Source: Agrococcus sp. ProA11 (GTDB taxonomy: Bacteria; Actinomycetota; Actinomycetes; Actinomycetales; Microbacteriaceae). From it: a stretch of 64,000 nt of DNA. Location: NCBI RefSeq assembly GCF_039880525.1, contig NZ_CP156989.1, forward strand, positions 2,480,001 to 2,544,000. Reading direction: 5' to 3'. A program made the position numbers and the translations under genes. Shown here piece by piece: positions 1-15,103 of this stretch. The notes under the pieces are model-generated. The model was not told the DNA's origin. It did not search any database and saw only the letters and a list, made by a program, of their open reading frames with translations. The stretch's first letter is position 1; every line of letters begins with the position of its first letter.

Positions 1-92
1 CACGCGGTCGTCAGGTTCGGGTACTCATCGAGATGGTCGAGCACGAGCCGGATCGCTCGCTGCTTCGTCTCCTCCGGGATCTGCTTCGGCAT
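1..92 (-). CDS. IS3-family transposase OrfA, N-terminal fragment cut by window edge
   Basis: Translation on the minus strand from the ATG at 92 gives MPKQIPEETKQRAIRLVLDH followed by LDEYPNLTTA, typical of the N-terminal HTH_Tnp_1 region of IS3 OrfA transposase subunits, which bind the element ends. Only 30 residues are inside the window. A GGAAGGAAG ribosome-binding stretch lies about 10-18 bases upstream of the ATG. Whether the whole gene is intact cannot be judged. OrfA normally works with OrfB (DDE integrase) through a programmed frameshift. Confidence 0.65.
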   Translation of the reverse strand, partial: MPKQIPEETKQRAIRLVLDHLDEYPNLTTA

Positions 93-149
93 GATGACTA
101 TCTTCCTTCCAGACTCGAAAGGAACCGGCATCAAACCGGGGACGGTTCA
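1..149 (-). mobile_element. End of an IS3-family insertion sequence (partial)
   Basis: The first 92 bases encode, on the minus strand, the N terminus of an IS3-type OrfA. About 57 bp upstream of its start the minus strand reads TGAACCGTCCCCGGTTTGAT (149 down to 130), which looks like the terminal inverted repeat of actinobacterial IS3 elements (5'-TGAACCG..CCGG type). The outer end is therefore placed at 149. The rest of the element, the other repeat and the target duplication lie outside the window. The exact end is inferred from motif resemblance only. It borders the downstream end of the BREX operon. Confidence 0.6.
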
Positions 150-391
150 CAGTGCCGCCGCTGCTCCCGGTGCCACCTTCGAGGATGCAACGGAAACCAG
201 CCTCGCATCGCATTCCAGCCAATCAGCCGAGCCGAGGACGAGCGACACGGATGCAGACGTCGTCGCCTGAAGTTAGCGAGCCAACATCCGGATGACCTCG
301 GCCCACGACGGCTTCGGCCTAATCCGATGTCATCGGCTCGCTCCGGACTTGCCATGACGCCACGCGCCGTGCTCGATTCGACGAAGACGTG
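150..391. other. Intergenic gap between IS end and brxL, nothing recognised
   Basis: No reading frame here has a plausible start, ribosome-binding site and residue composition, and no strong terminator hairpin after the brxL stop codon was seen. The stretch is more mixed in base composition than the chromosome to the right. Confidence 0.4.
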
Positions 392-2590
392 TCACTGCGC
401 TGCCTCCTCTCTGGGCGCGATGGGGATCTTCACGTAGTGGACACTGAACGCGGAGCCAATGAGTCGGAACTCCTGGCGGTTACGGCCGAAGTCGAAGGGG
501 TTGTCGCTCGGCTTCTGCCAGATGTCGAGGCCCTTGCCGAGGTCAACACGCCAACCGTGGTTGGTCTCGAGGCGGCGGTCGTGGATCGTATCGTCGAGCC
601 GCACACCGAGGCGTACACCTACGGCGTCGGACGCGTCTTTGATCGACTTGAGCATTAGCAACTGGTTGTGCTTGAACTCGACCTTTGGCTCCTCGGTGGT
701 GACCAACTCGACATCGATCTCGTCGGCGTCGTCCTTGGCCGCGGCGAGCAGGCTCAGCAGGTCCGCGAGGTTGCGCCCCTGGTGCGGCAGGCGGATGTAC
801 GGGTCCGTGATGGTGATCTTGGATGCGCCGCGAAGGTAAGGCAGAAGGAGTGCTTCGTAGGACACGCCCTTCTGGCCGGCCGTGAAGTCCCGATGCCCCT
901 CGGCCAACGCTGAGGTAGCGGGCTCCGCGGGCTTGTCCGGTGCGGCCGCAGAAGAGGCGGTCGATGGCGCGGGCGTCGGGGTCGGATAGGTCGCTGTAGG
1001 CGCACCTGCACCTGAGCCGCCTTCATCGTGGGGCGATGAATCCCAGTCCCGTCGATAAAGCTGTGGGTACTGGTCCTCTTCAAGTGTGGTGACGTCGTGC
1101 CACCCGCCCGTCTTGTCGGCGTACCGGAAGTGGACGGAGGTGTCGCGCATCGTGGCGTCGATGCGAAGGATCGAGTCCTTGATGCGCTTGCGACCCTCGA
1201 TCGCGAACTCGAGCAGCGCACGGATCTCGTCCTCGGTGGCCGCGCCACTCGGGTGCACAAGCTTCATTAGCCCCGAAAAGGTCTTGCGGACGCCGTCCTG
1301 GTCGCGCGTCGAGATCGAGTTGTCAAGTGCGAAGTACTCCTTGTACTTGTCCGAGAAGTCTTCAGACCGCTTGGCGCGCAGGATCTCGGCGAGGTAGTCG
1401 ACGACGAAGCCGTATCCGGTCGAGAACATCTCCGAGCGGATCGGGGCGACCTCCCAGCCCGGGATGTAGTGGTGGATGCGGTCGAGCCAGGCCGGGTCGC
1501 GGTATGCGTCGGGCAGTTCGTCGAACAAATCGGTGTTCTTTAGCATGTACGGCACTGTGTGCGTGGTGTTGCCAATGAAGGCCATCGAGGCCTCGGCGCC
1601 GTAGATGCTCGTTCCTCGCGAGAACGACTTGTTCGCAAGGTAGTTCTTCATGACGTTGACAAGGTTCTGGTCGGCCCGTCGGATGGAGGCGAACTCGTCG
1701 AACGCGACGCAATCCCAGTACCCGACCAGGCCGATACGGCCGCTCGCGTTGTTCACGAAGAGCTTGGCGACGGTGACCTCGCCGCCGGAGATGAGGATGC
1801 CGTTCGGGGAAAACTCGCTGAACGTGTGCGACTTGCCGGTGCCCTTGGGGCCGAGTTCGACGACGTTGTAGTTGCGCTCGACGAACGGGATGAGCCGAGT
1901 CAGAGCGATAAGTTTGCCGCGTTCGTTGAACCGCTCGGGGTTGAGACCGATCGACTGCATGAGCAGGTCGATCCACTCGTCGGTGGTGAAGGCCTTGCGC
2001 GCCTCGTAGTAGTGGTCGATGTCGGCGCCGGCGACCTGAATCGGCTTGAGGCTGCCGAGAATCCACGGCACGACGCGCTGGTCATCGGAGTGGAAGTACT
2101 CGATGTCGCAGATGCACCACACACCGCCGACGAGGAGTTTGGGGTTGTGCTTAACCGTGACGTCGTCGATTATGACGCCCTTGACCTGGAGGTTCTCGAA
2201 CTCCGCCTCGTGGACGTCGTTTTTCTCGTTGAGCGTGACCGTGACCTTGTCGATCACGCGATGGCGGCCCTTGCGGCGGATCTCCGACTTCACGAGCATG
2301 TGTTCGTTGCGGTTGACGTAATGGGTTGCGAGGATCTGGCGAACGCTGTCGATCCCGGCCTGAATCGTCGCCTCGTCGTCGGACGCGGCGTACTGGCCCA
2401 GCAGGTACTCCAGGACGTACGATGGCACCACAGCGTTGCCTCGGACCGCCTTGACAAGGTCCTTGCGGACGACGGCACCGGCGAAGTGCTCGTTGATCTT
2501 GTCGTCGAGCTCGGACTTCGCCGGGGCCGCATCGGTCGCCTCAGGAGCGAAAACATCGATCTCGCCGAGAGCGTCTTCGAGGTTCGTCAC
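392..2590 (-). CDS. brxL: BREX protein BrxL, AAA+ ATPase with MIT_C-like C-terminal domain
   Basis: Last gene of a type 1 BREX operon; BrxL is a ring-forming AAA+ protein needed for phage exclusion. I chose the GTG at 2590 (732 aa) because an AGGGGGAG ribosome-binding site precedes it and it starts 8 bases after the pglZ stop; an upstream extension to 2665 lies inside pglZ. Visible: BrxL N-terminal region, Walker A GPKGTGKS (247-254), Walker B VAFDEF (295-300), then a Pro/Ala/Thr-rich linker around 525-565. Residues about 577-725 contain ITDPYIRLPHQGRNL and HDRRLETNHGWRVDLGKGLD, the signature of the MIT_C domain, a phospholipase D-like fold without an obvious catalytic HKD pair. No Lon-type Ser-Lys peptidase region was recognised. 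Family assignment of the N-terminal 500 residues is firm; the role of the C-terminal domain is unknown. Confidence 0.9.
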   Translation of the reverse strand: MTNLEDALGEIDVFAPEATDAAPAKSELDDKINEHFAGAVVRKDLVKAVRGNAVVPSYVLEYLLGQYAASDDEATIQAGIDSVRQILATHYVNRNEHMLVKSEIRRKGRHRVIDKVTVTLNEKNDVHEAEFENLQVKGVIIDDVTVKHNPKLLVGGVWCICDIEYFHSDDQRVVPWILGSLKPIQVAGADIDHYYEARKAFTTDEWIDLLMQSIGLNPERFNERGKLIALTRLIPFVERNYNVVELGPKGTGKSHTFSEFSPNGILISGGEVTVAKLFVNNASGRIGLVGYWDCVAFDEFASIRRADQNLVNVMKNYLANKSFSRGTSIYGAEASMAFIGNTTHTVPYMLKNTDLFDELPDAYRDPAWLDRIHHYIPGWEVAPIRSEMFSTGYGFVVDYLAEILRAKRSEDFSDKYKEYFALDNSISTRDQDGVRKTFSGLMKLVHPSGAATEDEIRALLEFAIEGRKRIKDSILRIDATMRDTSVHFRYADKTGGWHDVTTLEEDQYPQLYRRDWDSSPHDEGGSGAGAPTATYPTPTPAPSTASSAAAPDKPAEPATSALAEGHRDFTAGQKGVSYEALLLPYLRGASKITITDPYIRLPHQGRNLADLLSLLAAAKDDADEIDVELVTTEEPKVEFKHNQLLMLKSIKDASDAVGVRLGVRLDDTIHDRRLETNHGWRVDLGKGLDIWQKPSDNPFDFGRNRQEFRLIGSAFSVHYVKIPIAPREEAAQ

Positions 2591-2598
2591 AACTCCCC

Positions 2599-5091
2599 CT
2601 AGAAGTCGAAGTCCGTCGTGAACGACCGTTTGATGGTGTAGTTCCCCTTCGAGAACGTCTTCCACTGTGTCGTGTTCGGGACCGGCTCTTCGAGACGCAG
2701 CTCGACGGGCCGATTGTTGTACCGGTCAGCGTCCTGGGTTAGGTAAAGCACTGCCTTCTGATACCGATCGCGCTGGTCGTCGGATGCACTGGTGAAGGGG
2801 AGGACGGGCTGGTCGGAGATCAGTATGTCGCCGACGTAAAGACCGAGGCGAACCTGACGCGGCTGGATCTTGTCCGTGACCGCCTCGCGCTGGAGCAGCT
2901 TGACCGCCAGCTGCCCGGTGGTGATCTTGTCGGTCTCGGGCATGAGGTCGACGTTGACCGAACGGATGTCGCTCTTGCGCTTCTTGTTGACCATGAGCAC
3001 CGGGACGACGATCTCCTGAAGAGATGCGCCACCATGGACGTAGCGGGTGCCAGCGCCGGGTTGCGGGATGCGGTGGATCGACTTGGGAATCTGAATATCG
3101 AGGTCGCCCAAGAGCCCCGCCTGCGCCGAGGTGAACGTCATGAACGACGGGGATGGCTTCAGCGACCGGCCGAGAACGTAACGCCGGTTGATCTTAGTGA
3201 CCGCGTCACCCCGGGGAGTTTCCGAGACGTAGTACGACTGCTCCAGCGGGATGTCCTGGTAGAGGAACCCGTGGTCGGCGGTGATCAGGATGTTCGTCGC
3301 GTTCGCGTTTGCCCACTTCTTGACGAGTTGGAGCAACTCGCGGAGGGCCTCCGCGGCGGCTTCAAAGACAGTCCGCTCCGTCGGGGCCTTGTCGCCCGCG
3401 GCGTCGATGCGGTCGTGGTAGACGTAAAAGATCTGGTGCTTCGTGTACAGCTCGCGAAGCTCGCTCCCCGGCATAGCCAGGACCTCGGCCGCGGTGATTG
3501 CGTGTCCCTTGACGGCTTGCAGAATCTTGTCGCGGTTCGCGGTTCCGTTCGTCGGCTTCCCGTCCGCGAGCACCGGCAGACCCGCGGGGCAGAGTTCCAG
3601 GCTCGACTGCGGAAGCAGCGACGCCATACCGAGCTGGGTGTAGCTCGGCAGTGAGCCGAGCACGGCCGAGAGTGAGGCGTCGAACCGGTCCTCGCTGCGG
3701 ATCATCGACGCGAGTTCCTCGGCGATTTCGTGGCGCATGCCGTCGGAGATGATCACGACCGCTTTGGTGCGTCCGTCCCTGACGACGGGAGCGACGTAGT
3801 GATCAAAGAATTTCGCCTGTGGTGCCAGGGAGTCCGATTTCCACTCGCTCATGGGCTCAAGAGCCTGCTGCCAGAGCCCGCCAAAGTCGTAGAGGTACCT
3901 ATTGGCATACTGCTTATCGACCTCGGCCTTAAGCGCTTCTAGCGGCTTCTGGAAATCGGCGGTCTGGTGGGCGTAGGTGAACCAGCGGTAGTGCTGGTCG
4001 ATGCGGAACCAATCGGACTGGTACTTTTCCAGCCCAAGGGCGGCAGAAGCGATGGCGTGCGGCAGCGCAGCGATCGCGGCGAGCAACTCGGAGGCGCTCT
4101 GAATCGCTTCGTAGAGCTTGACGTACTTGGCGCTCCACAGGCTGTGATGACGGTGCCGAACGATGTCCGCGATCTCGCGGGGCGTCACCGACTGACCAGC
4201 GACGGCGGCGGCGAGGTCGACGATCACCTTGCGGTCAATCTCCTCAAAGATCGTGATCTTGGTCAGTTCGCGGTAGTCGCGATGCTCGATCTTCGAGTTC
4301 ACGTCGAGTGCTTCTGCCGCGCGGGAGGCGAGCTTCTTCATCACGTCTTGGGTGCGGACGTCGTAGCGCAAGGCGTTGAAGTCGCTGCGGATGTTACGGA
4401 ACTCGTCAGGGGTGGCCGACGCGAAGTCCTCGATGGCGCGGCCGAACATCCAGATGACGAAGTCATCGATCGTCGGCGTCGTGTTCCGGTACTTGTAAAT
4501 GCTCGCGAGCCCGTGCCAGAAGAACTGGTCGAGGCCGAAGGCGACGAGGTCGTCGAACTTGGCTGTCTTCCCGGCAGCGTTCTCGACGAGAAGTTCGCGG
4601 ATGATATCGGTCAGCTGGTTCCCTGACGCTCTGACAAGCACTTGGCACAGCTTGGCTCGCAGGCGGGCGGCGTCGTCTTCGTCATTAAGCAGTTCTTCCA
4701 GCGCCTGCTTCCGACTATTCGCGGCGAAGAATTGATGGTGCTGCTCGATCACCGGCAACAGGGCCGGGTCATTAAGGCCAAGTGACTGCTGGAGCATGGA
4801 GGTCTTGTCGGCCGTAAAGATGCCGTGGGCGAGTTCCAGATCTAGCAGCCAGTTCTCGGTGACACGCGGGAGGTCACCGGAGCGGTAGACAAGGTGCTTG
4901 TTGACGGGGTCGGTGAGGATGGTGTTCTTCACGCTGAACTCATTGTGCTGTAGACGGATGACGTTGACCGCGCCGAGATCGAGCGCATCTAGATCGGCGG
5001 CACACTCGCCGAGGGGATCGTGCCAGAACACAACACGTTGGGAGGCTAGTCGACTGTGGAGGGCGCGCTGGACGGCGCTCAGATCAGTCAC
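2599..5091 (-). CDS. pglZ: BREX-1 protein PglZ, alkaline-phosphatase-superfamily protein
   Basis: PglZ is a core BREX protein with an alkaline-phosphatase-like fold and is thought to act with PglX and BrxB/BrxC in the methylation/exclusion complex. The 830-aa product shows phosphatase-type metal-site motifs: VVIISDGMRHEIAEEL near residue 445 and ILITADHGFLYQ near residue 600. The N terminus (LSAVQRALHSRLASQRVVFWHDP) is the usual PglZ opening. The start is a GTG at 5091, overlapping the end of pglX by 8 bp, so translation is probably coupled. Length and position before brxL match the type 1 order. Biochemical activity cannot be read from the sequence. Confidence 0.93.
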   Translation of the reverse strand: MTDLSAVQRALHSRLASQRVVFWHDPLGECAADLDALDLGAVNVIRLQHNEFSVKNTILTDPVNKHLVYRSGDLPRVTENWLLDLELAHGIFTADKTSMLQQSLGLNDPALLPVIEQHHQFFAANSRKQALEELLNDEDDAARLRAKLCQVLVRASGNQLTDIIRELLVENAAGKTAKFDDLVAFGLDQFFWHGLASIYKYRNTTPTIDDFVIWMFGRAIEDFASATPDEFRNIRSDFNALRYDVRTQDVMKKLASRAAEALDVNSKIEHRDYRELTKITIFEEIDRKVIVDLAAAVAGQSVTPREIADIVRHRHHSLWSAKYVKLYEAIQSASELLAAIAALPHAIASAALGLEKYQSDWFRIDQHYRWFTYAHQTADFQKPLEALKAEVDKQYANRYLYDFGGLWQQALEPMSEWKSDSLAPQAKFFDHYVAPVVRDGRTKAVVIISDGMRHEIAEELASMIRSEDRFDASLSAVLGSLPSYTQLGMASLLPQSSLELCPAGLPVLADGKPTNGTANRDKILQAVKGHAITAAEVLAMPGSELRELYTKHQIFYVYHDRIDAAGDKAPTERTVFEAAAEALRELLQLVKKWANANATNILITADHGFLYQDIPLEQSYYVSETPRGDAVTKINRRYVLGRSLKPSPSFMTFTSAQAGLLGDLDIQIPKSIHRIPQPGAGTRYVHGGASLQEIVVPVLMVNKKRKSDIRSVNVDLMPETDKITTGQLAVKLLQREAVTDKIQPRQVRLGLYVGDILISDQPVLPFTSASDDQRDRYQKAVLYLTQDADRYNNRPVELRLEEPVPNTTQWKTFSKGNYTIKRSFTTDFDF

Positions 5092-8000
5092 TTGCAGCCT
5101 CCATTCCGACGATCTTTCTGAGTGCGGCGCCGAATTTCAGGTAGTTCGCCCGGACCCCGTCGTCGAGGTCGAACACGACGTTCTCGGACGCCTTCGGGAA
5201 GAGCGTGTCGTGCTCGTACTCGTTCAGCTCGACGAGGATCTTGCGAAGCCGATCCGCCTCCTTCGCGTTGCCGGCCCGCTCGGCCTGCTGAAGGGCCGAC
5301 TCCAGCTTCGTCACGTACTCGCGCAGGTAGGTCAGCACCGTCGAGACTGTCGACGGTGTGTAGCGGTGCATGTAGATCAGGGCATTAAACGAACCCCTAG
5401 GACTGGAGAACTGCCAGTAGATCGGCCGCTTCTTGTACCGCTGCCAATGATCCTTATAGAAGGACTTCACGAAGTAACCGCGTAGGCTCTTCACCCCAAG
5501 CGAGTTGGCCACGAATCGGAGGTTCTCCTCGAAGTGCTCTTCGCCGAACGCGGCACGCAGGAACTGCCGGAACCGCTCGACGATGTCGTCCTCGAACCAG
5601 TCGCCGTCGACGATGGGGATGACGTTATCTGTGTCGGGCGTGAACGTCGGGTACGGAACCTTCGTGAGGTAGTCGTGCAACGTCGCGCCCTGGTCAGCAA
5701 GGATTAGCCCGGACTCGTCGAGGCTGTAGCGGCCGAACATGCAGCCGACTGCATAGGAGACGAGGTCCTCAGCCAACAGCCGCGCCGCACTTGCATCATT
5801 GCGGAGGTCATCATGGACCAAACCCGTAGGCCGCTGCTCCGCCAACGGGAAAACGTCGGGACCAACCGAACCTGACTCGCGGAAGTGCTCTTCAATGGTC
5901 CGCTCCAATTTGAGAACACGCTTCTCCGCTTCCAGACGCGCCGAGCGGTCCGAATCCAAGGCATCCTTCACCGACGAGGGTGCGTCGACCATTAGGAATC
6001 GATCGAATGACGGCGAAGTCTCGCGCCTGGCCCAGATTTCGCCTGCGGACACGAGGGCCGAGGTCACGCTTGAGGCAACTTCTTCGGGACGTGCAGGGTG
6101 AATCACGGGGATTCTCGCGACTGGACCTTCGTGATAATCGAGCGTCGGGGAGAGCGAGTCGATCAATCTCCGAGCGATCGGGGTGTTCAGGTATCCAAGA
6201 ATCCAGTTGAGGTCCTCGTTCTTAAGTGGGAAGAGCATCGATCCCTTGGATTCGAACAGGAATCCCTCAGGTGAGACGCGGACCGCGAACTCGCCGGAGA
6301 GACTCGACCACGTCGCGCCGGCACGGAAGTAGTAGCTAGGATTCCGGATCACCGAACGCGGACGAAAGTTGAGGAGCGCCAACCCGTCGCTTTCCCAGTC
6401 AACGACTAGTTCGTCATTCCCCACCCACCGTCGGGGCGTACCGCCCTTCTGCACGGGGAACCATCGTGCACGCGACTCGGCAGCTTCCGCATGGCTGGCC
6501 GCAGTTCGGCAGGTCCGCGCTCTAGACACCTCCCACCAGAACCTGAGGAACCGGCTGTTGTCTCCAGTTGCCAGTCCTTGCCGAGTTCCTGCCAACGTCA
6601 TAAGGCTAGGGTGGTCTCGGTAGATGTGCCTCTCACTGGCACTCAACCAGTAGGCCATCGACGACAGCGGCAACTCGGTGAGGTCGCGGGAGGTGACTTC
6701 GTGCCGAAGGGTCGAATCGGTGCCGGCCGCCACTACTAGCGCAGCTCTTGATTGAACGGCTTCTCCGCTTAGACCCGCCAGGCGGAGATAGACGCCGCGC
6801 GCTTCGCCCGGCTGGACATGGATCACGAACGCGGCGGTAGAAACTACCTCTCCGCCGATCGTGTCGAACGCCCCTGCTCCCAAATGCGCAAGCGTCGCAA
6901 CGATGAACTCACGTAGAATCTTCTGCCTTAAGGCAGAAAAGGTGCTGAGGAACATCCAAGACTGCATCGTGATCATGGCCACGAATCCGCCCCTCGAGGC
7001 AAGGACGAGGTTCCGCGCGATGAACATGGAGTAGAGGTCAGTCTTCGCGCTCGGATACTTGGACTTCGCAAACTCGACCAATTGAGAAGACATGTTCTTG
7101 CTGCCCATGTAGGGCGGGTTGGCAACAACCACCGCGTACCTCGGCAACAGGTACTCCGCCTGGTGAATCACCTTCTGGGCTCGGTCAAGCGTATCGGCCC
7201 GAAGAATGTCGCCGTCGGCGTCGAGCGTCGCGAGGTGACACGCGAGCCGAACGGCCAGGGCAGGGTTGGGCTGAATCAGGGAGCCGAACGTGTCAGCCTC
7301 GGCAAACTGGTTCCAGAATGCCTCCTCCGAAAACCGGTCGCCGTCCTCCGTGACAAGGAAGCCCACCTCGTCGGGTGTGAAGGTAGTCGGGTACAGGACG
7401 CAGATGTTCGGCTCGACCGGATCCTTGAGGAAGAGTTTGCGCTTAGCGGCGGCCTTCATAGTCAGGGCGAATGCGGCCAGTGCGCCGGCGCGGGGGTCAA
7501 TCTCGATGCCGTAGAGGTTGTTCGTGAGGATCAGGCTGGGAATCTTCGACGGCGTGTAGCCCTCCTCCTCATAAATTGCGTAGAGGAGATCGAAAGCGTA
7601 CGTGAGCATATGACCCGAGCCGCACGCCGGATCGATCACCTTCAGTTCCTCCGGCTTGGTGATTTTGTGGAAGTCGGCCTCCTGGTCAACCGGGGCGATG
7701 TAGTAGTCCAACTGGTCGATGAGGCGAGACTCGGGATGGTTGAGCATCCACAGGCGACCCAAGGAGTTCTCGACGAGGTAGCGGACGATCCAGTGCGGAG
7801 TGAACAACTGCGTCGCGGCGGGGATCTCGTCGGCGCCGGCCCGCTTCCGCTCGGCGCCTTTCGCTTTGAACCCGTCGAACACTTCCTGCTTCCGCTCCGA
7901 GATGTAGAACTGGTAAAGCCAGCCGATGACCTCGACGTCCTGGCACACGTCCTCGGTGAGCACCTTGACGGAGCGGCTCAGGACAGAGTCCTCGGCGAGC

Positions 8001-8542
8001 AGGTTGGCTGGGATGAGCAGCTCGGTGTAGTCACCGTCGCGCTCGAACATGAAGGGCATGGCCGCATTCCAGTAGCGGCAGTAGTCCGCGAGAAGTAGGG
8101 CGTATGACTCCGCTTGCGCGTCGACGCCAGGTCGTGGCTGGCGGGTGCCGTTGAGCAGTCCGGTGATGGTTGCGGAGTGCGCTCCCTTAACCACGACACT
8201 GTCGACCTGGCCGCGCTTGGCTGCGGCGAGGACCGCGGGCTGGCCGACCTGATCGGCGGCGGGCGAGACCACGCCGATGCCGGTATAGCCGTTTGCATCC
8301 ATGAAGCGCAGGGCGATGATGCGGTTGAACCACGTGTAGGCGACCTTGTCGGCCACATGCGCCTTGCCGTTGTCGCCACCGCCCCCGCCGGTGATGGCAC
8401 GTTCCAGCGCTGTCACGGCCCAGCGCTGCTCGACCCTCTCCGGTGACCCCTGGGCCAGCACGGCGGTGATGCGCGCGCCGACTTCGCGAATCAGTTCTGT
8501 GCGCGCCGACGTGGCGAAGGCCTTAAGCGGTGCGGTGTCCAT
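5084..8542 (-). CDS. pglX: BREX-1 adenine-specific DNA methyltransferase PglX
   Basis: PglX modifies adenine N6 at a short non-palindromic site on the host chromosome, which marks self DNA and is required for phage exclusion. The 1152-aa protein has SAM-binding motif I VIDPACGSGHMLTYAF (about residue 300) and catalytic motif IV VVANPPYMGSKN (about residue 472), as in N6-adenine methyltransferases fused to a long C-terminal recognition region. The ATG at 8542 shares its first base with the brxC stop codon (TGATG arrangement). The 3' end overlaps pglZ. I saw no internal stop or frameshift, so the gene looks functional. The target sequence cannot be predicted from the gene. Confidence 0.94.
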   Translation of the reverse strand: MDTAPLKAFATSARTELIREVGARITAVLAQGSPERVEQRWAVTALERAITGGGGGDNGKAHVADKVAYTWFNRIIALRFMDANGYTGIGVVSPAADQVGQPAVLAAAKRGQVDSVVVKGAHSATITGLLNGTRQPRPGVDAQAESYALLLADYCRYWNAAMPFMFERDGDYTELLIPANLLAEDSVLSRSVKVLTEDVCQDVEVIGWLYQFYISERKQEVFDGFKAKGAERKRAGADEIPAATQLFTPHWIVRYLVENSLGRLWMLNHPESRLIDQLDYYIAPVDQEADFHKITKPEELKVIDPACGSGHMLTYAFDLLYAIYEEEGYTPSKIPSLILTNNLYGIEIDPRAGALAAFALTMKAAAKRKLFLKDPVEPNICVLYPTTFTPDEVGFLVTEDGDRFSEEAFWNQFAEADTFGSLIQPNPALAVRLACHLATLDADGDILRADTLDRAQKVIHQAEYLLPRYAVVVANPPYMGSKNMSSQLVEFAKSKYPSAKTDLYSMFIARNLVLASRGGFVAMITMQSWMFLSTFSALRQKILREFIVATLAHLGAGAFDTIGGEVVSTAAFVIHVQPGEARGVYLRLAGLSGEAVQSRAALVVAAGTDSTLRHEVTSRDLTELPLSSMAYWLSASERHIYRDHPSLMTLAGTRQGLATGDNSRFLRFWWEVSRARTCRTAASHAEAAESRARWFPVQKGGTPRRWVGNDELVVDWESDGLALLNFRPRSVIRNPSYYFRAGATWSSLSGEFAVRVSPEGFLFESKGSMLFPLKNEDLNWILGYLNTPIARRLIDSLSPTLDYHEGPVARIPVIHPARPEEVASSVTSALVSAGEIWARRETSPSFDRFLMVDAPSSVKDALDSDRSARLEAEKRVLKLERTIEEHFRESGSVGPDVFPLAEQRPTGLVHDDLRNDASAARLLAEDLVSYAVGCMFGRYSLDESGLILADQGATLHDYLTKVPYPTFTPDTDNVIPIVDGDWFEDDIVERFRQFLRAAFGEEHFEENLRFVANSLGVKSLRGYFVKSFYKDHWQRYKKRPIYWQFSSPRGSFNALIYMHRYTPSTVSTVLTYLREYVTKLESALQQAERAGNAKEADRLRKILVELNEYEHDTLFPKASENVVFDLDDGVRANYLKFGAALRKIVGMEAASD

Positions 8543-11500
8543 CAGAGCGTGATTCGCTTTCCGTCGCTAAGGGTCGCGATGAGCGCGGTGCGCAGGGCGG
8601 CAAGGTAGTTGTCGACATCGGATTCGGATTCGAGGATGCCGGAGACGCCGGGGGCGCTGATCGTCTTGACCGACACGATCGGCGTGGGCGCCGGAACGTC
8701 GTCGCCCACCCCCGGCTGCGTCTCGACGAGACGACTCAGCAGCGCCGGGTAATCATCCTGCTCGAACGTTGCTCCAACCTGGAGGATGAGAGCGATCTGA
8801 GTCTCGCCGCCGAGTCGCACGAGGATCTGGTCGATGCGCTCTACCACGCTCTCCTGCGCGAGTGAGCTGGCGTTGGCGTAATAGACGCTGCCGAGGATCT
8901 CTGCCTTGCGCCCCTCGATCGCTGCGGTCACGTCGGCGCGGTTGCCGGAGACGACATCGTCGATCTGACCCCGCAAGGCGTCCGCAGCCAACTTGAGCTG
9001 GTTCATCTTGTTGCCACGGAAGGCGTTGGCATCAGAGAGCAAGGCCTTGGCCGAGTCGGCACTGCCTACGGGAAGGTAGCCGAGGTTCCCAACGTTGGCG
9101 TTGAGGAAAGTCTGCGCCTCGTCAAAGATCTTGGCTTGCTGCCCGTTGAGGAAGGACTTGATCGGGTCGACCAGGTCCTCCTTGGCGTCGATCAACTCCT
9201 CACCCTTGTCGAACTCGCTGAGGTACCAGTCGACCTGCTTGCCGACGACCTCGTCGAGCAAGGCGACGACGCCGGAGAGCTGGTTGACGAACGGGTACCG
9301 GCTGCTGCTCACGAGGGCGTTGAGTTCGTCGCGCCTCGACGCGAGCCGGTCCTTGCCGAACCTAGCCAGTTCGGCGGGGTCACTTGGTACGGCACCCTCG
9401 TCGAAGAAGTCGGTGCAGAACCTTTTGAAACCCGCAACCTTCGCCTGGTCGTACGCCTTCTGCGGAGCGACGACGAGGTGCTGGTGCTTACCCGTGTTGC
9501 GGATGAGCGACGATGCTTCGGTCCGAACGACCGGGTTCGAGTCGACGCTGAGCGCGACTTTGCCGTTGCCGACGAGCCAGCCCAGCACGACCTCGATGGA
9601 GCCGAGACCCCAGCCGTAGGGCTTGGTCTCGAAGCGGTCGACGATCTTTTTGATCGTCACCTGTTCACCCAGGCCGGACCGGGTGATAATCCAAGACTCC
9701 ATCTCGGCGCCCGGCGACTTGAGCGCGCTTAGCGTGGCCGCGTCGAACAGACCCTTGTCGTTCTGGACTACGTTGGCGACCTGCTGCTCGGAGAACACCT
9801 TGCCGCCGAGGAGCCCAAGGCTGGTGTACGTGCGGCTCACGAGTTCCTGGAACCCATCGGCCACGCGCATGGCGGCATCCTGCGAGCTGGAGGTGATTTC
9901 AGCGGCGTTGATGATTAGCTGCGCCTTGCCGACAGCCTGCCGGAGGCGCTCGACGAGTTCCTTCTCGCGGTCCGCGTTGAGCACATGCTTCGACTGGAGG
10001 ATCGCCTGCATCGATGGCGTGGCACCGGAGTTGGTGCGCTGCTTGGTGTACTTCTCCGTCTTGAGCAGCAGGCGCAGGTCGGCAAGCAGCCGCTTGTCGC
10101 GGCCGAGGAAGACCCGCAGCTCGTCCCTACCCATGCTCTGCGCTGCAATCTCGGAATCGCTGTAGTTGGTCTCGGGCGTGATGAAGTGGATGGTCAGCTC
10201 ACGCTGGTTTCCCTGCACTGTGTCATCAAGCTTGTAGCCGAAGGAGAAGTCCTGGCCGTTCTTCGCGTACTTCAGCTTGTTGGTCTTCAGGATGTCGGAC
10301 GAGAGGTACCGGAAAAGCTTGCTAGAGACCTCGGACGAGTCGACGTCGACCGCTTTGATCTCCTTCTCGATCTCCTGCTCCTCGTTGGTGAGGTATTCGT
10401 AGACGTTGCCGTTGCGCTGGACGTAGGACTGTGCCTCAAGCAGGTTGAGCGCGTCCTGCACTTGCCTGCCCCGCCCGGCGAGGTCGAGCCCGAAGCGGTC
10501 GTAGACGAGCACGGTGAGGTTGCGGGGCGTGGCCTTAAACGTGTCGACGTACTTGACTAGGAACAGCGCCTTAAGCAGCCGGTTGGCGAGGATCGTGACT
10601 TCGGAACCAGGTTCGGGCAAGTGCTTCTCGGCCTGGAGGATAGCGCTCTGGGCAGCCGACTTCAGCGCGGCGCTGATACCCGCGAACATCTGATCAAAGG
10701 TCGCGAGGTAACCCACCTGCTCTTCGCCGATGCGCTTGGCGACCTCTTGGACTACGCCGAGCATCGAGCGCTCGCCCACGGAACTGTTCTTGCCCTCGAA
10801 CATGTTGTGGTCGGATAGGCCCTCGATCGCGGCCTGGAACATCGGGATCTGGTAGGTGACGAACGGGTAGGTGTTGATGAAGCGGGCTTCGTCGACGTAG
10901 TTGCGGTAAGTCTTCGCGCCGTCGACGAAGTTGAATATCGTCGGGAAGTTCGCCGCTTCCTCGGAGTAGATCGACGTGAGGGCGGCAGCGCCCGCGTCGC
11001 TCTTCTCCAGCAGACGCTTGCTGATGACCTCCTCGACGTCCTGGCTTGTCAACTTCACCTTCGCGCTGAACCGAGCCTGGATTTTGGAGAAGTCGTTGCC
11101 CTGCTGCTTGGTGCGGTCGCCGACGACCTTGTCCATGTCCTCCTGCGACGTCACGAAGACCCACGCCTGCCCCTTGCACTTCGTGTTGAGGGACTCGGCG
11201 ATCGTCTGGAGGTTGAGCATGAGCTTGACGTCGTCGGCGATGAACTGGCCGACTTCGTCGACGAAGAAGTTGAGCCGGAAGCCCGCTTCCTGCTTGTCGA
11301 TCCATGCCTTGACCGACGTGGCGAAGTCCTCGATCGAGACGGCGTAGGAGTTCTGGTACTGCGCGATGATCCCGGGGTTCGCCTCGCCGTTGACCTCGGC
11401 GAACGCCTTGTCGATGTTGTGACCTTCCAGGGCGGTTTGCTCGCGCCCCCGGGACCAGTCGACGCCGGCGTGCTTGGCGAAGGCCGCCTTGAACGCCTCG

Positions 11501-12024
11501 TACTGGGCGCGCCGGTCAAGATCCTCCTCGAACCGGGCGACAGCACCGTCGTTGCCGAAGTAGCCGCGGCTTTCGTCGAAGACCTTGACGAAGACCTTGA
11601 GCAGGGCGTCGGCCTGGTCCTTGGCGATCAAGGTCGCTTTCTGGTCAATGTTGAATAGCAGGCTCTTAGCCGGGATGGCTGCGGCCTTCTTCAGTGAGGC
11701 GATAAGCATCGCGTCGTCAGTCTTGCCGAGGAAGGCCTCGCTCACCTTCTCGCGGGGGAACGCCTGACCCTCGACATCGCCGAGGAGGTGGGCAAGCATC
11801 TTGAGCAGGTGAGACTTACCGGAGCCGAAGAAGCCGGAGATCCACACGCCGTTCGCGTTCGTGTAGTTGGTGTATTGCTCCAGCAGCGGCGCAACACCCT
11901 TCGCGGCGTCGTTGGTGAAGACGTACTCCTCAACCTCGATGCCCAGGTGGTCTCCGTCGTCAGCCTTGACGACGCCCTCGATCGAGCGGGTGACATCCTT
12001 GAGGAAGATCTCGTTGAGTTTCAT
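8542..12024 (-). CDS. brxC: BREX protein BrxC, large P-loop ATPase
   Basis: BrxC is the large STAND/AAA-like ATPase of BREX (PglY/DUF499-related group). The 1160-aa product carries Walker A GFFGSGKS at residues 64-71 within NGVWISGFFGSGKSHLLK, and a probable Walker B FFVDEVGQFI near residue 253. The ATG at 12024 lies 4 bp after the brxB stop and the 3' end touches pglX by one base, so it is mid-operon. The sequence is uninterrupted. The role in assembling the BREX complex is known from the family, not visible here. Confidence 0.93.
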   Translation of the reverse strand: MKLNEIFLKDVTRSIEGVVKADDGDHLGIEVEEYVFTNDAAKGVAPLLEQYTNYTNANGVWISGFFGSGKSHLLKMLAHLLGDVEGQAFPREKVSEAFLGKTDDAMLIASLKKAAAIPAKSLLFNIDQKATLIAKDQADALLKVFVKVFDESRGYFGNDGAVARFEEDLDRRAQYEAFKAAFAKHAGVDWSRGREQTALEGHNIDKAFAEVNGEANPGIIAQYQNSYAVSIEDFATSVKAWIDKQEAGFRLNFFVDEVGQFIADDVKLMLNLQTIAESLNTKCKGQAWVFVTSQEDMDKVVGDRTKQQGNDFSKIQARFSAKVKLTSQDVEEVISKRLLEKSDAGAAALTSIYSEEAANFPTIFNFVDGAKTYRNYVDEARFINTYPFVTYQIPMFQAAIEGLSDHNMFEGKNSSVGERSMLGVVQEVAKRIGEEQVGYLATFDQMFAGISAALKSAAQSAILQAEKHLPEPGSEVTILANRLLKALFLVKYVDTFKATPRNLTVLVYDRFGLDLAGRGRQVQDALNLLEAQSYVQRNGNVYEYLTNEEQEIEKEIKAVDVDSSEVSSKLFRYLSSDILKTNKLKYAKNGQDFSFGYKLDDTVQGNQRELTIHFITPETNYSDSEIAAQSMGRDELRVFLGRDKRLLADLRLLLKTEKYTKQRTNSGATPSMQAILQSKHVLNADREKELVERLRQAVGKAQLIINAAEITSSSQDAAMRVADGFQELVSRTYTSLGLLGGKVFSEQQVANVVQNDKGLFDAATLSALKSPGAEMESWIITRSGLGEQVTIKKIVDRFETKPYGWGLGSIEVVLGWLVGNGKVALSVDSNPVVRTEASSLIRNTGKHQHLVVAPQKAYDQAKVAGFKRFCTDFFDEGAVPSDPAELARFGKDRLASRRDELNALVSSSRYPFVNQLSGVVALLDEVVGKQVDWYLSEFDKGEELIDAKEDLVDPIKSFLNGQQAKIFDEAQTFLNANVGNLGYLPVGSADSAKALLSDANAFRGNKMNQLKLAADALRGQIDDVVSGNRADVTAAIEGRKAEILGSVYYANASSLAQESVVERIDQILVRLGGETQIALILQVGATFEQDDYPALLSRLVETQPGVGDDVPAPTPIVSVKTISAPGVSGILESESDVDNYLAALRTALIATLSDGKRITL

Positions 12025-12028
12025 CGGG

Positions 12029-12634
12029 TCATGCTTCCTGGTCGAGGATGCGCTTGGCGCGGTAGAAGGAGTCGTCCTTGAGCCGGTCGAACAGCACCAG
12101 TGCTGAGCCCTGTGTGGCCGACACCTCGTACCGTCCGGGGAAGAACATCAGCATCGGCTTGTCCGAGACGACGGTTTGCAGGTTGTTCAGTACCGTGTGC
12201 GAGCGCACGAACGGGAACACCTCGCCGATTCCGGTGAGGAACAGAATGTGGAACGACTCGCCCGCTATGCGATCCTTGATCGCCGGTGCGAGGTGGATCT
12301 GCGGGTCGAGCATGTTCTGGAGCATCTTGAGGAAGTCGGGCTTGTCCATCGTCGTCTCGGCGGCGAGCACGCGCTCCCACACGCTGCGCGCCTTGAGCAG
12401 CTCAACGCACAGGTCATAGAGGTTGATCTCGAAGACCTTGATGCCGCGCTCGGTGTCGAGCTTTGTCTTGATGCGCTTCTTAGCCTGGGCGACGTCGAGG
12501 GCCCAGGCGGGGTCGTAGTCGTAGATGAAGTGGGCAACCTCGTTGCCGAGGCCCTCCATCTTGAGGAAGCGCTCGCTGCTGAGCACCTTGAATAGGTGTT
12601 CCTCTTGCTGAGCCAGTGTGGGCTGGAAAGGCAT
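12029..12634 (-). CDS. brxB: BREX protein BrxB (DUF1788)
   Basis: A 201-aa protein of the DUF1788/BrxB family, recognisable by its LAQQEEHLFKVLSSERFLK opening, the conserved EVAHFIYDYDPAW segment and the C-terminal FLTGIGEVFPFVRSHTVLNN. BrxB is a small core subunit of unknown enzymatic activity, essential in type 1 BREX and reported to contact PglZ. The start ATG overlaps the brxA stop by one base (TAATG), indicating translational coupling. Length is normal for the family. Confidence 0.92.
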   Translation of the reverse strand: MPFQPTLAQQEEHLFKVLSSERFLKMEGLGNEVAHFIYDYDPAWALDVAQAKKRIKTKLDTERGIKVFEINLYDLCVELLKARSVWERVLAAETTMDKPDFLKMLQNMLDPQIHLAPAIKDRIAGESFHILFLTGIGEVFPFVRSHTVLNNLQTVVSDKPMLMFFPGRYEVSATQGSALVLFDRLKDDSFYRAKRILDQEA

Positions 12635-13242
12635 TAGGCACCTCTCGTCGGGAAGAAGCGCAGGTCGTTTCGGCCAGCCGCTGTCAACAGCTCAGCCAGC
12701 CGACCGGAGAGCAGGGCGGGCACGATCTCACCGTCTGATGTCACTAGGTCGGCCTCTCGCATCATCCGGAAGACGGTCTGCCGGATGCCGCTCTCCATCG
12801 AGTCGGAGAGATCAGCCAGCTCTGCGTGCCACATCGCCTGGCTCAACACGAATGCTTCGAGGTGTTCCGGCAAGATTGTCAACGCAAGGATCAAGTAGCG
12901 CTCGCGGAGCACCTGTTCTGCGAAATCGCCGATGAACGGGTAGGCGCGGCAGGCGGCCGCCCACGTGAGGTACCCGCGCTCCCTCGGAGCCGCGTCGAGC
13001 AAGAACTCGACCTCGTCATCGGACAGTACGACCAGCCGTCGAACAGCTTCACGGGTCAGGCGAACGCCGGACCTGTGCGTTCGAGCCTGAACCGCATTCT
13101 CCCTGACCGCGCGATCACGAACCGACTCCCATGACTCGCCAGGCCTACGCAGACCGGCGAGGAGTGTGGTCTCGCGCACAAGTAGTGCTCGGCTGACGAA
13201 GTTCAGCGCATAGCGCGGCCCGGCAGCATAACTGCCATTCAT
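12634..13242 (-). CDS. brxA: BREX protein BrxA (DUF1819)
   Basis: A 202-aa DUF1819/BrxA protein, first intact gene of the operon. Family features: YALNFVSRALLVRETTLLA near the N terminus and AYPFIGDFAEQVLRERYL in the middle, ending with FFPTRGA. BrxA is a small DNA-binding helical protein in characterised systems. A GGGAGGAGG ribosome-binding site precedes the ATG at 13242. The ATG is overlapped by the stop codon of the last frame of a broken helix-turn-helix gene (ATGA), suggesting that brxA was originally translated together with that gene. Confidence 0.92.
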   Translation of the reverse strand: MNGSYAAGPRYALNFVSRALLVRETTLLAGLRRPGESWESVRDRAVRENAVQARTHRSGVRLTREAVRRLVVLSDDEVEFLLDAAPRERGYLTWAAACRAYPFIGDFAEQVLRERYLILALTILPEHLEAFVLSQAMWHAELADLSDSMESGIRQTVFRMMREADLVTSDGEIVPALLSGRLAELLTAAGRNDLRFFPTRGA

Positions 13243-13506
13243 GGAAACCTCCTCCCTGGCAAATCGGCAAGTTGATCAGGATACGTCGACCTACTGACAC
13301 CGCTGGGGAGCGAGCACGTGTTGTCGTCCCGCGGCTCGGGCGCTGCCCAGCCGCTGCGCACCCCCTCGCCGATCTCGCTGGCCTGAACCTCCGCCGCTGG
13401 CCAACGCGATGGCTGGCCATCCTCTCGTCCGTGATCCACTCGCAGGTGTCCTTCGTAATGCCCAAGTGACGGCGATCTCCTCCGCAGACAGCCACGGCTG
13501 AACCAC
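13239..13506 (-). pseudogene. Excisionase-like HTH regulator, broken by two frameshifts
   Basis: Three consecutive minus-strand frames join into one recognisable small HTH protein: VVQPWLSAEEIAV (from GTG 13506), then HLGITKDTCEWITDERMASH plus RVGQRRRF, then ASEIGEGVRSGWAAPEPRDD. This is the pattern of excisionase/MerR-like HTH_17 proteins (LSxEEIAxxLGITKDTxxxWI...HRVG..RF..SEIxEWVRxG). A one-base loss near 13468, after the GTC codon, and another near 13386, after the TTC codon, would each restore the frame. A GGAGG site precedes the GTG. The last frame runs to a TGA that overlaps the brxA ATG, which supports it as the original C-terminal frame. Probable former regulator of the BREX operon. 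Sequencing error at two sites is the alternative. Confidence 0.7.
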
Positions 13507-13959
13507 GTCGGTGGCCTCCGGGCTACATGCGCCGATACCGCAACCTTATCGACGGCGGACGGTGCGGATGCCCGCGGCACACGGCGTAGCGCTGCGCGGA
13601 TGGCGCGACATCGCCGCCCCAGCTCGAGCGGTCGCTGACCGTTCGAACTCGTGCCGTTCACGCGTATCGCACCGGCGTCGTCAACTCTTAGGTGGCCACT
13701 GTGCCGAACGGCTGCCCGCAAACAGCAAGCGGCACCAGCCGTCAGGGCCGGATCTGTTCGGCAGTATCGCTTCATGCGAGCAATGTAGGCCGAGCCGGTG
13801 CCCGCAAGAGTCGACCCGCTTCGAAAGTAGCCGTGTTCCTCCTGGCCGACACCGCCCTCGTGACGAGCACGAGCGACCTGACTCTCGCATCCGACTCGAA
13901 TTCGCCCTCCTGCACGTGCTCGACCACCGGGTTGTGCTGGGACACCGAGCCGCTCCCGC
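13507..13959. other. Non-coding gap upstream of the BREX operon
   Basis: About 450 bp without a supportable gene. Open frames exist on both strands but give Arg/Ala/Ser-rich translations without ribosome-binding sites or family motifs. It must contain the promoter for the minus-strand BREX operon, but I could not single out a convincing -35/-10 pair; TAAGGT on the minus strand near 13546-13551 is only a weak candidate. The border between island and chromosomal DNA probably falls here. Confidence 0.5.
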
Positions 13960-14167
13960 CCGACGACGCGATGCTCGAGCGCGCGGCGGAGCTTGGCGGC
14001 GTGCACGAGATCCGGCTGCTCGAGCGCTTCCGCGACGAGCAGGAGTTGCGCGTCACGCTGCGTTGCTCGACGGCGTCCGCGCGGTCGACACGCGGCTGCA
14101 CGCGCGAATCAAGCAGGAGCGCTACCAGTTCGCGCAGCAGCTGCCGCTGGCGGAGGTTCGCGGCTAA
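13960..14167 (+). pseudogene. Decayed C-terminal fragment of an AsnC/Lrp-family regulator
   Basis: From about 14063 the plus strand encodes LDGVRAVDTRLHARIKQERY followed by QFAQQLPLAEVRG and a stop at 14167. This is nearly the same as the C terminus of the intact tandem AsnC regulator at 31983-32906 ([25 protein letters not shown]). In another frame, just upstream, AMLERAAELGGVHEI and FRDEQELRVTLR resemble the preceding part of the RAM/AsnC ligand domain, with a one-base frameshift near 14057-14062 and apparent internal loss. No HTH or start remains. It converges on the nitrilase gene just as the intact paralogue converges on agmatinase. Confidence 0.65.
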
Positions 14168-14213
14168 CGGTCCAGCGCGCGGCGGCGACTGGACGAGCGC
14201 TCGCGGATCGCCG

Positions 14214-15020
14214 TCAGTCCTGAGGCAAGTCGGCGACGTAGGTGTTGATCGAGCGCGCACGCTCGATCGCCGAGACCGGCACCCGCACCACGGCCACGCC
14301 GGCATCGTCGCCGAGTAGGGCGACGTTGTGCCCAAACGGCGTCGCAACGCAGCTCCGCCCCGTGAACCCCGGGCCGCAGTGGTTCGCATACGCGATCACC
14401 ACTCCGTTCTCGAGCGCCCGCGCCGGCACCTGCAGCGTCGACGTCTGCGTCGCCGAGTAGTGCCAGGCGTCGCCCAGCCCTTCAACGCCCTCCTCGACCG
14501 TCGGCACCGCGGTCGGCACCAGCAGGATGTCGGCGCCCGCGACCGAGAGCGAGCGGGCGAACTCCGGGAACTCGACGTCGTAGCAAATGCCAACGCCCCA
14601 CGACGTGCCGCGCCAGGCGACCGGAACCCCGTAGGCCTCAGCCGGCGTGATCCACTGCTGCTCCACGCCGCCATAGAGGTGACGCTTGTGTACGCGAGTG
14701 AGCTCCTCCCCCTCCGACGAGAAGAACGAGGCGGCAATGTGATGCGCGTCGCCCACCGAGTCGATCGACGACGCCACGAGCCCGATCCCGTGCTCGAGCG
14801 CCAGCGCCGAGAGCGACTCTCGGATCGCCGCGCCATCGTGCTGCCAGGCGCGGTCGGGCGCATAGCCAGTGGCGAAGAGCTCGGGTGTCACGACCACGTC
14901 CGCGCCCTGCTCCGCAGCGGACGCGACAAGCCCTGCCAGCGTCGCCAGGTTCTGGTCGACGTCGTCGATAACGGCGGCCGCCTGGGCCACCGCGATGGTG
15001 TGCGTTCGGTCGTCGCTCAT
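14214..15020 (-). CDS. Carbon-nitrogen hydrolase (nitrilase superfamily amidohydrolase)
   Basis: A 268-aa cytoplasmic nitrilase-fold enzyme that would hydrolyse an amide or N-carbamoyl compound. The Glu-Lys-Cys triad is visible: VVVTPELFATGY (Glu), RVHKRHLYGG (Lys) and WGVGICYDVEFPE (Cys). I chose the ATG at 15020 (MSDDRTHTIAVAQAA) because GAGGATGG precedes it and the family starts there; an upstream ATG at 15086 would add a poor leader. It diverges from the small protein/NCS1 permease operon across a 160-bp region with a long inverted repeat, so substrate import and hydrolysis may be co-regulated. N-carbamoyl-amino-acid or ureidopropionate hydrolysis is possible but unproven. Confidence 0.85.
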   Translation of the reverse strand: MSDDRTHTIAVAQAAAVIDDVDQNLATLAGLVASAAEQGADVVVTPELFATGYAPDRAWQHDGAAIRESLSALALEHGIGLVASSIDSVGDAHHIAASFFSSEGEELTRVHKRHLYGGVEQQWITPAEAYGVPVAWRGTSWGVGICYDVEFPEFARSLSVAGADILLVPTAVPTVEEGVEGLGDAWHYSATQTSTLQVPARALENGVVIAYANHCGPGFTGRSCVATPFGHNVALLGDDAGVAVVRVPVSAIERARSINTYVADLPQD

Positions 15021-15103
15021 GGGTCCATCCTCGTCCACGGTCGTGCCAGGCGGCCACATCGGCGCAAACAACAAGTTGACGCGCAAGCCCGTCGTAGTTC
15101 AGT

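Follow-up and report, generated by a model that had tools for sequence, protein, structure and literature searches.

A complete type 1 BREX operon in Agrococcus sp. ProA11

The stretch of DNA analyzed here, hereafter the window, comprises 64,000 nucleotides (nt) of Agrococcus sp. ProA11 (contig NZ_CP156989.1, positions 2,480,001 to 2,544,000), a member of the Microbacteriaceae whose genome is a single contig of 2,665,899 bases. Between window positions 392 and 13242, on the minus strand, lies a bacteriophage exclusion (BREX) operon of six genes in the order brxA-brxB-brxC-pglX-pglZ-brxL (Table 1). An earlier, first-pass annotation of this DNA had described a complete, intact type 1 operon in canonical order, and the coordinates of the open reading frames (ORFs) bear this out, as no internal stop interrupts any of the six. 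All six proteins match PADLOC BREX profiles nearly over their full length. Pfam places BREX domains in BrxA, BrxB, BrxC, PglZ and BrxL and a methyltransferase domain in PglX, and NCBIfam assigns a BREX-1 PglX, a BREX-1 PglZ of type A, BrxC and BrxL, with no NCBIfam match for BrxA and BrxB. BrxC contains a Walker A motif, GFFGSGKS, at residue 64 (identified by regular expression), and PglZ contains SDGMR at residue 449 and TADHG at residue 604, which we take to be its active-site motifs. The absence of pglW, brxD and brxHI, noted previously, was also reproduced: none was matched among the ten ORFs scanned with profiles or among the subset of flanking ORFs that was scanned. With its six core genes, type A PglZ and BREX-1-class PglX, the locus is almost certainly a complete type 1 BREX system of a Microbacteriaceae actinobacterium, including the BrxL architecture described below. 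It is an ordinary BREX type 1 locus, and its BrxL architecture has already been published.

The overlapping starts and stops reported earlier are found at three of the five junctions: brxA/brxB and brxC/pglX each share 1 nt and pglX/pglZ overlap by 8 nt. The claim does not hold for brxB and brxC, which lie 4 nt apart, and probably not for pglZ and brxL, which overlap only if brxL begins at the GTG at position 2665; the GTG at 2593 leaves a gap of 5 nt. This second GTG, giving a protein of 733 residues, is probably the true start, because it is preceded by GGGGGAG and because alignments to BrxL homologs begin at residue 25-26 of the 757-residue frame. BrxL residue numbers below refer to the longer frame.

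Table 1. Features of the BREX locus and its surroundings in the window
Feature	Window position	Strand	Details
brxA	12634-13242	-	202 aa; PF08849 1.8e-40; PADLOC BrxA 1.2e-59, 200 bits
brxB	12029-12634	-	201 aa; PF08747 8.2e-40; PADLOC BrxB 3.6e-63, 211 bits
brxC, ATPase	8542-12024	-	1160 aa; NF033441 (BREX_BrxC) 1083 bits, cut-off 400, residues 2-1148; PADLOC 1500 bits
pglX/brxX, adenine methyltransferase	5084-8542	-	1152 aa; NF033452 (BREX_1_MTaseX) 1203 bits, cut-off 500; PADLOC 1203 bits
PglX variable recognition block	5783-7102	-	residues ~481-920; starts just after NPPY
pglZ, type A	2599-5091	-	830 aa; TIGR02687 672 bits, cut-off 270; PADLOC 878 bits
brxL	392-2665	-	757 aa from first GTG; PADLOC PDLC02508 1013 bits, residues 51-746; TIGR02688 579 bits, cut-off 329
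BrxL_N domain		-	residues 59-190; Pfam matches PF20442 and PF13337 cover this domain and the AAA+ domain
BrxL AAA+ domain		-	residues 202-506, Walker A at 272
BrxL C-terminal MIT_C domain (PLD fold)	431-868	-	residues 600-745; Pfam; in place of Lon-like domain
HTH_17 gene remnant upstream of brxA	13376-13512	-	pieces 13471-13512 and 13376-13468, in different frames
Window part of ~24.3-kb block without counterpart in congener G014	1-14229		right edge ~14229; left edge outside window, genome position ~2469928

BrxL carries a MIT_C tail with a modified phospholipase D motif

Behind the N-terminal and ATPase parts of BrxL lies a domain predicted to adopt the phospholipase D (PLD) fold. A Lon-like C terminus was not recognized: TIGR02653 matches over positions 2-469 of 675 only, and its score of 585.6 falls below the cut-off of 628. 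The alignment used for folding took in 41 of 81 rows; L116, whose stretch contains a stop, was excluded, and the others were simply not selected. In the BrxL tree the window protein falls inside the MIT_C clade. This domain swap corresponds to the BrxL-HKD architecture of type 1 BREX described by Rakesh and Krishnan (2026; PMC12839542), who cite Li 2025.

The tail of the window protein contains the motif H695-D-R697-x4-N702-x-G-W. Of the published H-R-D triad, His695 and Arg697 are thus present and Asn702 occupies the Asp position; because of this replacement, the window BrxL is filed under the BrxL-HKD architecture and not under the HRD-triad form. Nor does it contain the catalytic PLD pattern HxKx4D...GSxN, the window sequence being HDRRLETNHGWRVDLGKGLD. 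Counts among relatives refer here and below to the best 80 of 345 loci, which may omit records near the window's own genome. The lysine of the HKD motif is Arg in all 80, and the residue at position +7 from the His is Asp in 59, Asn in 20 and Ser in 1. All 80 also read G[R/K]GLD at the GSxN position, a figure biased by the scan patterns, which contain DPYIR and LG[RK]GLD; HxR, the +7 position and GW lie outside them. A polar pocket made up of DPY-x-R, Q, N, H-x-R and D/N is conserved between phyla, and also in the human protein MITD1. The L131 protein has H-x-R-x4-D and lacks GW.

Across the phylum, the BrxL ATPase part was found in 23 of 396 genomes (one a weak partial match), and PF16565 scored above its cut-off in 5 of the 396, in every case within a frame of 691-777 residues. 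The architecture also occurs in plasmid records. A phage origin of the MIT_C domain found no backing, as no match at E 1e-5 was obtained in 50,697 phage records. The 106 BrxL rows long enough to keep comprised 82 with MIT_C and 24 without, from which 27 and 22, respectively, were taken into a tree of 49 rows. This tree unites 26 of the MIT_C rows, drawn from Actinomycetota, Pseudomonadota and Bacteroidota, in a single clade (support 100/100). The remaining MIT_C row, L149, groups with a BREX-4 BrxL, both being long-branched. L149 and L164 are the two rows that fall outside the main group, and the length of their branches makes their placement unsure. The neighbors of L149 BrxL include SspB-like and SspC-like genes. 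Because its PglZ match is weak, no PAPS reductase was found among seven ORFs tested near BrxL and a DNA methyltransferase lies nearby, the system is at most type-4-like.

Unusual arrangements of brxL are seen at several loci. At L165:9966-12032 (genome G207), a MIT_C BrxL stands beside SspB-, SspC- and PglZ-like genes in a type-4-like setting in which no PAPS reductase was seen, which sits uneasily with the published statement that type-4 BrxL lacks a C-terminal extension. Seven open BrxL frames of the 80 lack Walker A. Two of them, in L085 and L122, are cut off by the end of the locus, and two are short (L060, 371 residues; L105, 467 residues). The other three, from propionibacterial L076, L077 and L079, share a 334-residue frame that covers just the MIT_C-bearing end of BrxL, and these three loci gave no match to any further BREX gene; the frame may reflect a true split of brxL or decay common to all three. 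L060, from a metagenome-assembled genome, is a shortened BREX locus: it carries brxA, brxB and brxC up to residue 805, after which the brxL end follows directly, and neither pglX nor pglZ was matched there.

Possible roles of the BrxL tail

By homology to type 1 systems, PglX together with BrxB, BrxC and PglZ would methylate adenine at a non-palindromic motif, presumably set by the recognition block of PglX itself, and so mark self DNA; the same complex would sense unmarked phage DNA, and growth would be blocked. BrxL would serve on the restriction side as an AAA+ ring on duplex DNA, through the N-terminal and ATPase parts that it shares with the BrxL proteins studied. BrxL rings on duplex DNA have been described (PMC12707154), and restriction is reported to require BrxL in E. 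coli and Acinetobacter, not in Salmonella (PMC6326788, PMC11341690).

For the MIT_C tail, the single likeliest reading, to which we give close to an even chance, is that its His/Arg/Asp-or-Asn pocket acts on DNA phosphate, making it a putative nuclease or nicking module mounted on the BrxL ring. The published inference of an active nuclease in BrxL-HKD rests on a "conservative" Lys-to-Arg replacement, and such a change inactivates human PLD2. A biochemical test of a PLD-tailed BrxL was not found in the open-licence literature. A serious alternative, somewhat less likely in our view, is that the domain is not a nuclease but a binding module for membrane phospholipid, a nucleotide, a phosphorylated partner or DNA ends, and places the ring much as the corresponding domain of MITD1 places that protein at membranes. 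The polar pocket is conserved more tightly across phyla and in MITD1 than membrane contact alone would need, which argues against this alternative, as does the fusion of PLD restriction nucleases such as SauUSI to helicase-like ATPases. More tentatively, and in our view somewhat unlikely, the BrxL tail and human MITD1 might share an ancient pocket (DPY[I/V]R..Q, HxRx4[D/N]) with unrecognized Arg-based phosphodiesterase chemistry or specific binding of a phosphate ligand. Such a pocket would couple the BrxL ring to the membrane or to DNA ends rather than act as the classical HKD nuclease that the literature now assumes, and the domain would have joined BrxL on two or more occasions, once in type 1 and once in a type-4-like system.

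The recognition region of PglX varies as a block

PglX contains NPPY at residue 475. Its identity to six relatives drops to 15-55% over residues 481-900, compared with 61-95% in the N-terminal part (residues 1-360) and 61-93% towards the C terminus (residues 961-1140). Because this divergence contrasts with the conservation of the first 360 residues, recognition regions appear from the alignments to move as a block that starts just after NPPY.

A second, reverse-oriented copy of the recognition block accompanied by a separate PglX C terminus is present at 13 of the 80 loci (L047, L051, L052, L054, L055, L057, L058, L067, L086, L093, L107, L108 and L117); the stretches L054:1-6000, L117:1-6000 and L093:1-5000 carry such opposed blocks. 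An ORF for a recombinase of the phage-integrase family lies nearby in all five of the 13 loci tested, and inverted repeats link the two block copies in each of the five loci examined for them. In Actinomycetota, the opposed blocks are likely a switch that changes BREX specificity by inversion. In Lactobacillus rhamnosus, a full and a partial pglX with an integrase between them have been described (PMC7513527). At L057:4799-5797 and L107:4343-5821, RhuM-family and Schlafen/AlbA-family genes lie between pglX and pglZ. The window genome has a single pglX, the only match at E <= 0.001, and a silent second recognition cassette was not found in it. The window stretch examined likewise showed no inverted repeat comparable to those at the related loci; one 26-nt pair of 81% identity was listed there.

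A broken HTH_17 gene upstream of brxA

Upstream of brxA lies the remnant of an HTH_17 gene, which is broken, its pieces sitting in different frames. Together the two pieces match, by tblastn at 2.4e-8, ORFs preceding brxA in L014 and L015, which Pfam assigns to HTH_17; related ORFs occur in L016 and L060 (L017 was left out of this comparison). WYL/BrxR-type regulators were not matched among the ORFs scanned adjoining the operon. An ORF at 13239-14006 (255 residues), which overlaps brxA and spans the broken gene, was rejected as a gene: it matches no family, and its G+C contents (GC) at the three codon positions are 0.73, 0.63 and 0.65.

The broken HTH_17 gene, together with the ISL3 and IS256-type (Mutator family) transposases encoded in the same block, raises the possibility of a decayed or silent locus in which the core genes remain open and expression has been lost. 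We consider this quite unlikely: all six core genes are intact, and if the HTH protein acted as a repressor, the operon would be expressed more strongly without it.

The BREX block was probably acquired horizontally

The operon belongs to a block of ~24.3 kb that has no counterpart in the congener G014, where the aligned flanks lie 130 nt apart (L038 4964/5095). One of these flanks ends at a nitrilase gene (window 14214-15086), the far one at an FAD oxidoreductase gene. The block also encodes DUF429, cyclase, permease, TY-Chap2 and EcsC proteins and transposases of the ISL3 and Mutator/IS256 types. At its far edge, outside the window, the DUF429 gene (L002:7953-8996) matches the PADLOC candidate defense family PDC-S44, and an ISL3 transposase gene, also outside the window (L002:13932-15385), is flanked on both sides by 24-nt inverted repeats (96%), apparently forming a whole insertion sequence. 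The nitrilase side is retained in five further congener stretches, and no BREX sequence adjoins the nitrilase gene in any of the six compared (L040 extends just 1.8 kb in this direction). In G001, ~5-7 kb separate the nitrilase gene from a segment of the far flank, and this interval contains no BREX.

Among 149 sampled relatives, the window genome included, 10 have brxL, with the MIT_C tail in 9 of the 10. The window BrxL shares 90% identity with its counterparts in Microbacterium gubbeenense and an uncultured member of the Microbacteriaceae, 86% with that of Propionicicella superfundia, presumably a member of another order, and 85% with that of Paraoerskovia marina. Relatives with 85-90% identity in BrxL and 86-87% in PglZ thus belong to other genera of the family and to other families. 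Within the genus, two other genomes appear among the brxL matches listed, one with 64% identity and the other with an alignment confined to residues 47-517. The congener G003 has a complete BREX system of the MIT_C type at a different genome location, with BrxL 62-64% identical to that of the window. At L091, brxC and pglZ are close to those of the window (87% and 85% identical) and brxL is only 61% identical, so that brxL seems, on these comparisons, to have been exchanged independently between BREX loci.

The lack of the ~24.3 kb with BREX at the corresponding site of one congener, and a BrxL that is 85-90% identical across genera and families against 62-64% in a congener, support the view that the block was probably acquired horizontally, as the first-pass annotation had suggested from codon composition; both are better evidence than that composition. 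Weighing against this view, a single empty site may by itself reflect either insertion or loss. The A/T-richness reported earlier stands for total GC, which is 0.619 in the BREX coding sequence and 0.703 in the 36 other predicted genes of the window, none of which falls below 0.63. As codon bias it stands only in part, for the shift at third codon positions (GC3) is much smaller, with a mean of 0.82 against 0.87 +/- 0.07; much of the difference therefore reflects amino-acid content. The GC3 values of brxB (0.88) and brxC (0.87) are chromosome-like, and those of brxA and pglX are 0.74 and 0.79. An integrase-borne island was rejected: the window contains no tRNA gene, the two edge stretches compared share no exact 14-mer, and the block ORFs scanned include no integrase family, only the transposases named above. 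Vertical inheritance with loss of BREX from other species of the genus would fit the complete MIT_C-type system of G003 and an empty site that cannot separate insertion from deletion, but the low identity and different location of that system, the lack of BREX beside the nitrilase gene in the six congener stretches compared and the GC of 0.62 against 0.70 make it very improbable.

Comparison with known systems

The window system has in common with the type 1 BREX systems of E. coli HS, Acinetobacter and Salmonella the six core genes and their order, a PglZ of type A, a PglX with NPPY and a central recognition region, and the N-terminal and AAA+ parts of BrxL. It differs in the C terminus of BrxL, which is of the MIT_C/PLD fold here and Lon-like in those systems, and in its upstream region, where a broken HTH_17 gene stands and the adjoining ORFs scanned gave no WYL/BrxR-type match. 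With BrxL-HKD as published, the window protein shares the domain swap and the Arg that replaces the HKD lysine; the paper gives H-R-D, whereas the window protein has HxRx4N. The main text of that paper does not contain MIT as a whole word and hence does not draw the relationship to MITD1. Among type 1 BREX systems that have brxL, it puts the share of this form near a third, at 1030 of 2913 taxa (PMC12839542). At stake is whether this third cuts DNA through BrxL.

The PLD-family restriction endonucleases SauUSI, NgoAVII and BfiI are 6-12% identical to the BrxL tail; they retain the lysine where the tail has Arg, and SauUSI is helicase-fused. The nearest solved relative of the tail is instead the C-terminal domain of MITD1 (PDB 4a5z, 2ymb), with 29% identity. 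MITD1 is a human protein associated with the endosomal sorting complex required for transport (ESCRT) and has no ATPase, whereas the BrxL tail rides on an AAA+ protein. With its replaced lysine and this relationship to MITD1, the locus is not a new system, but it offers a clear test case for the published nuclease inference.

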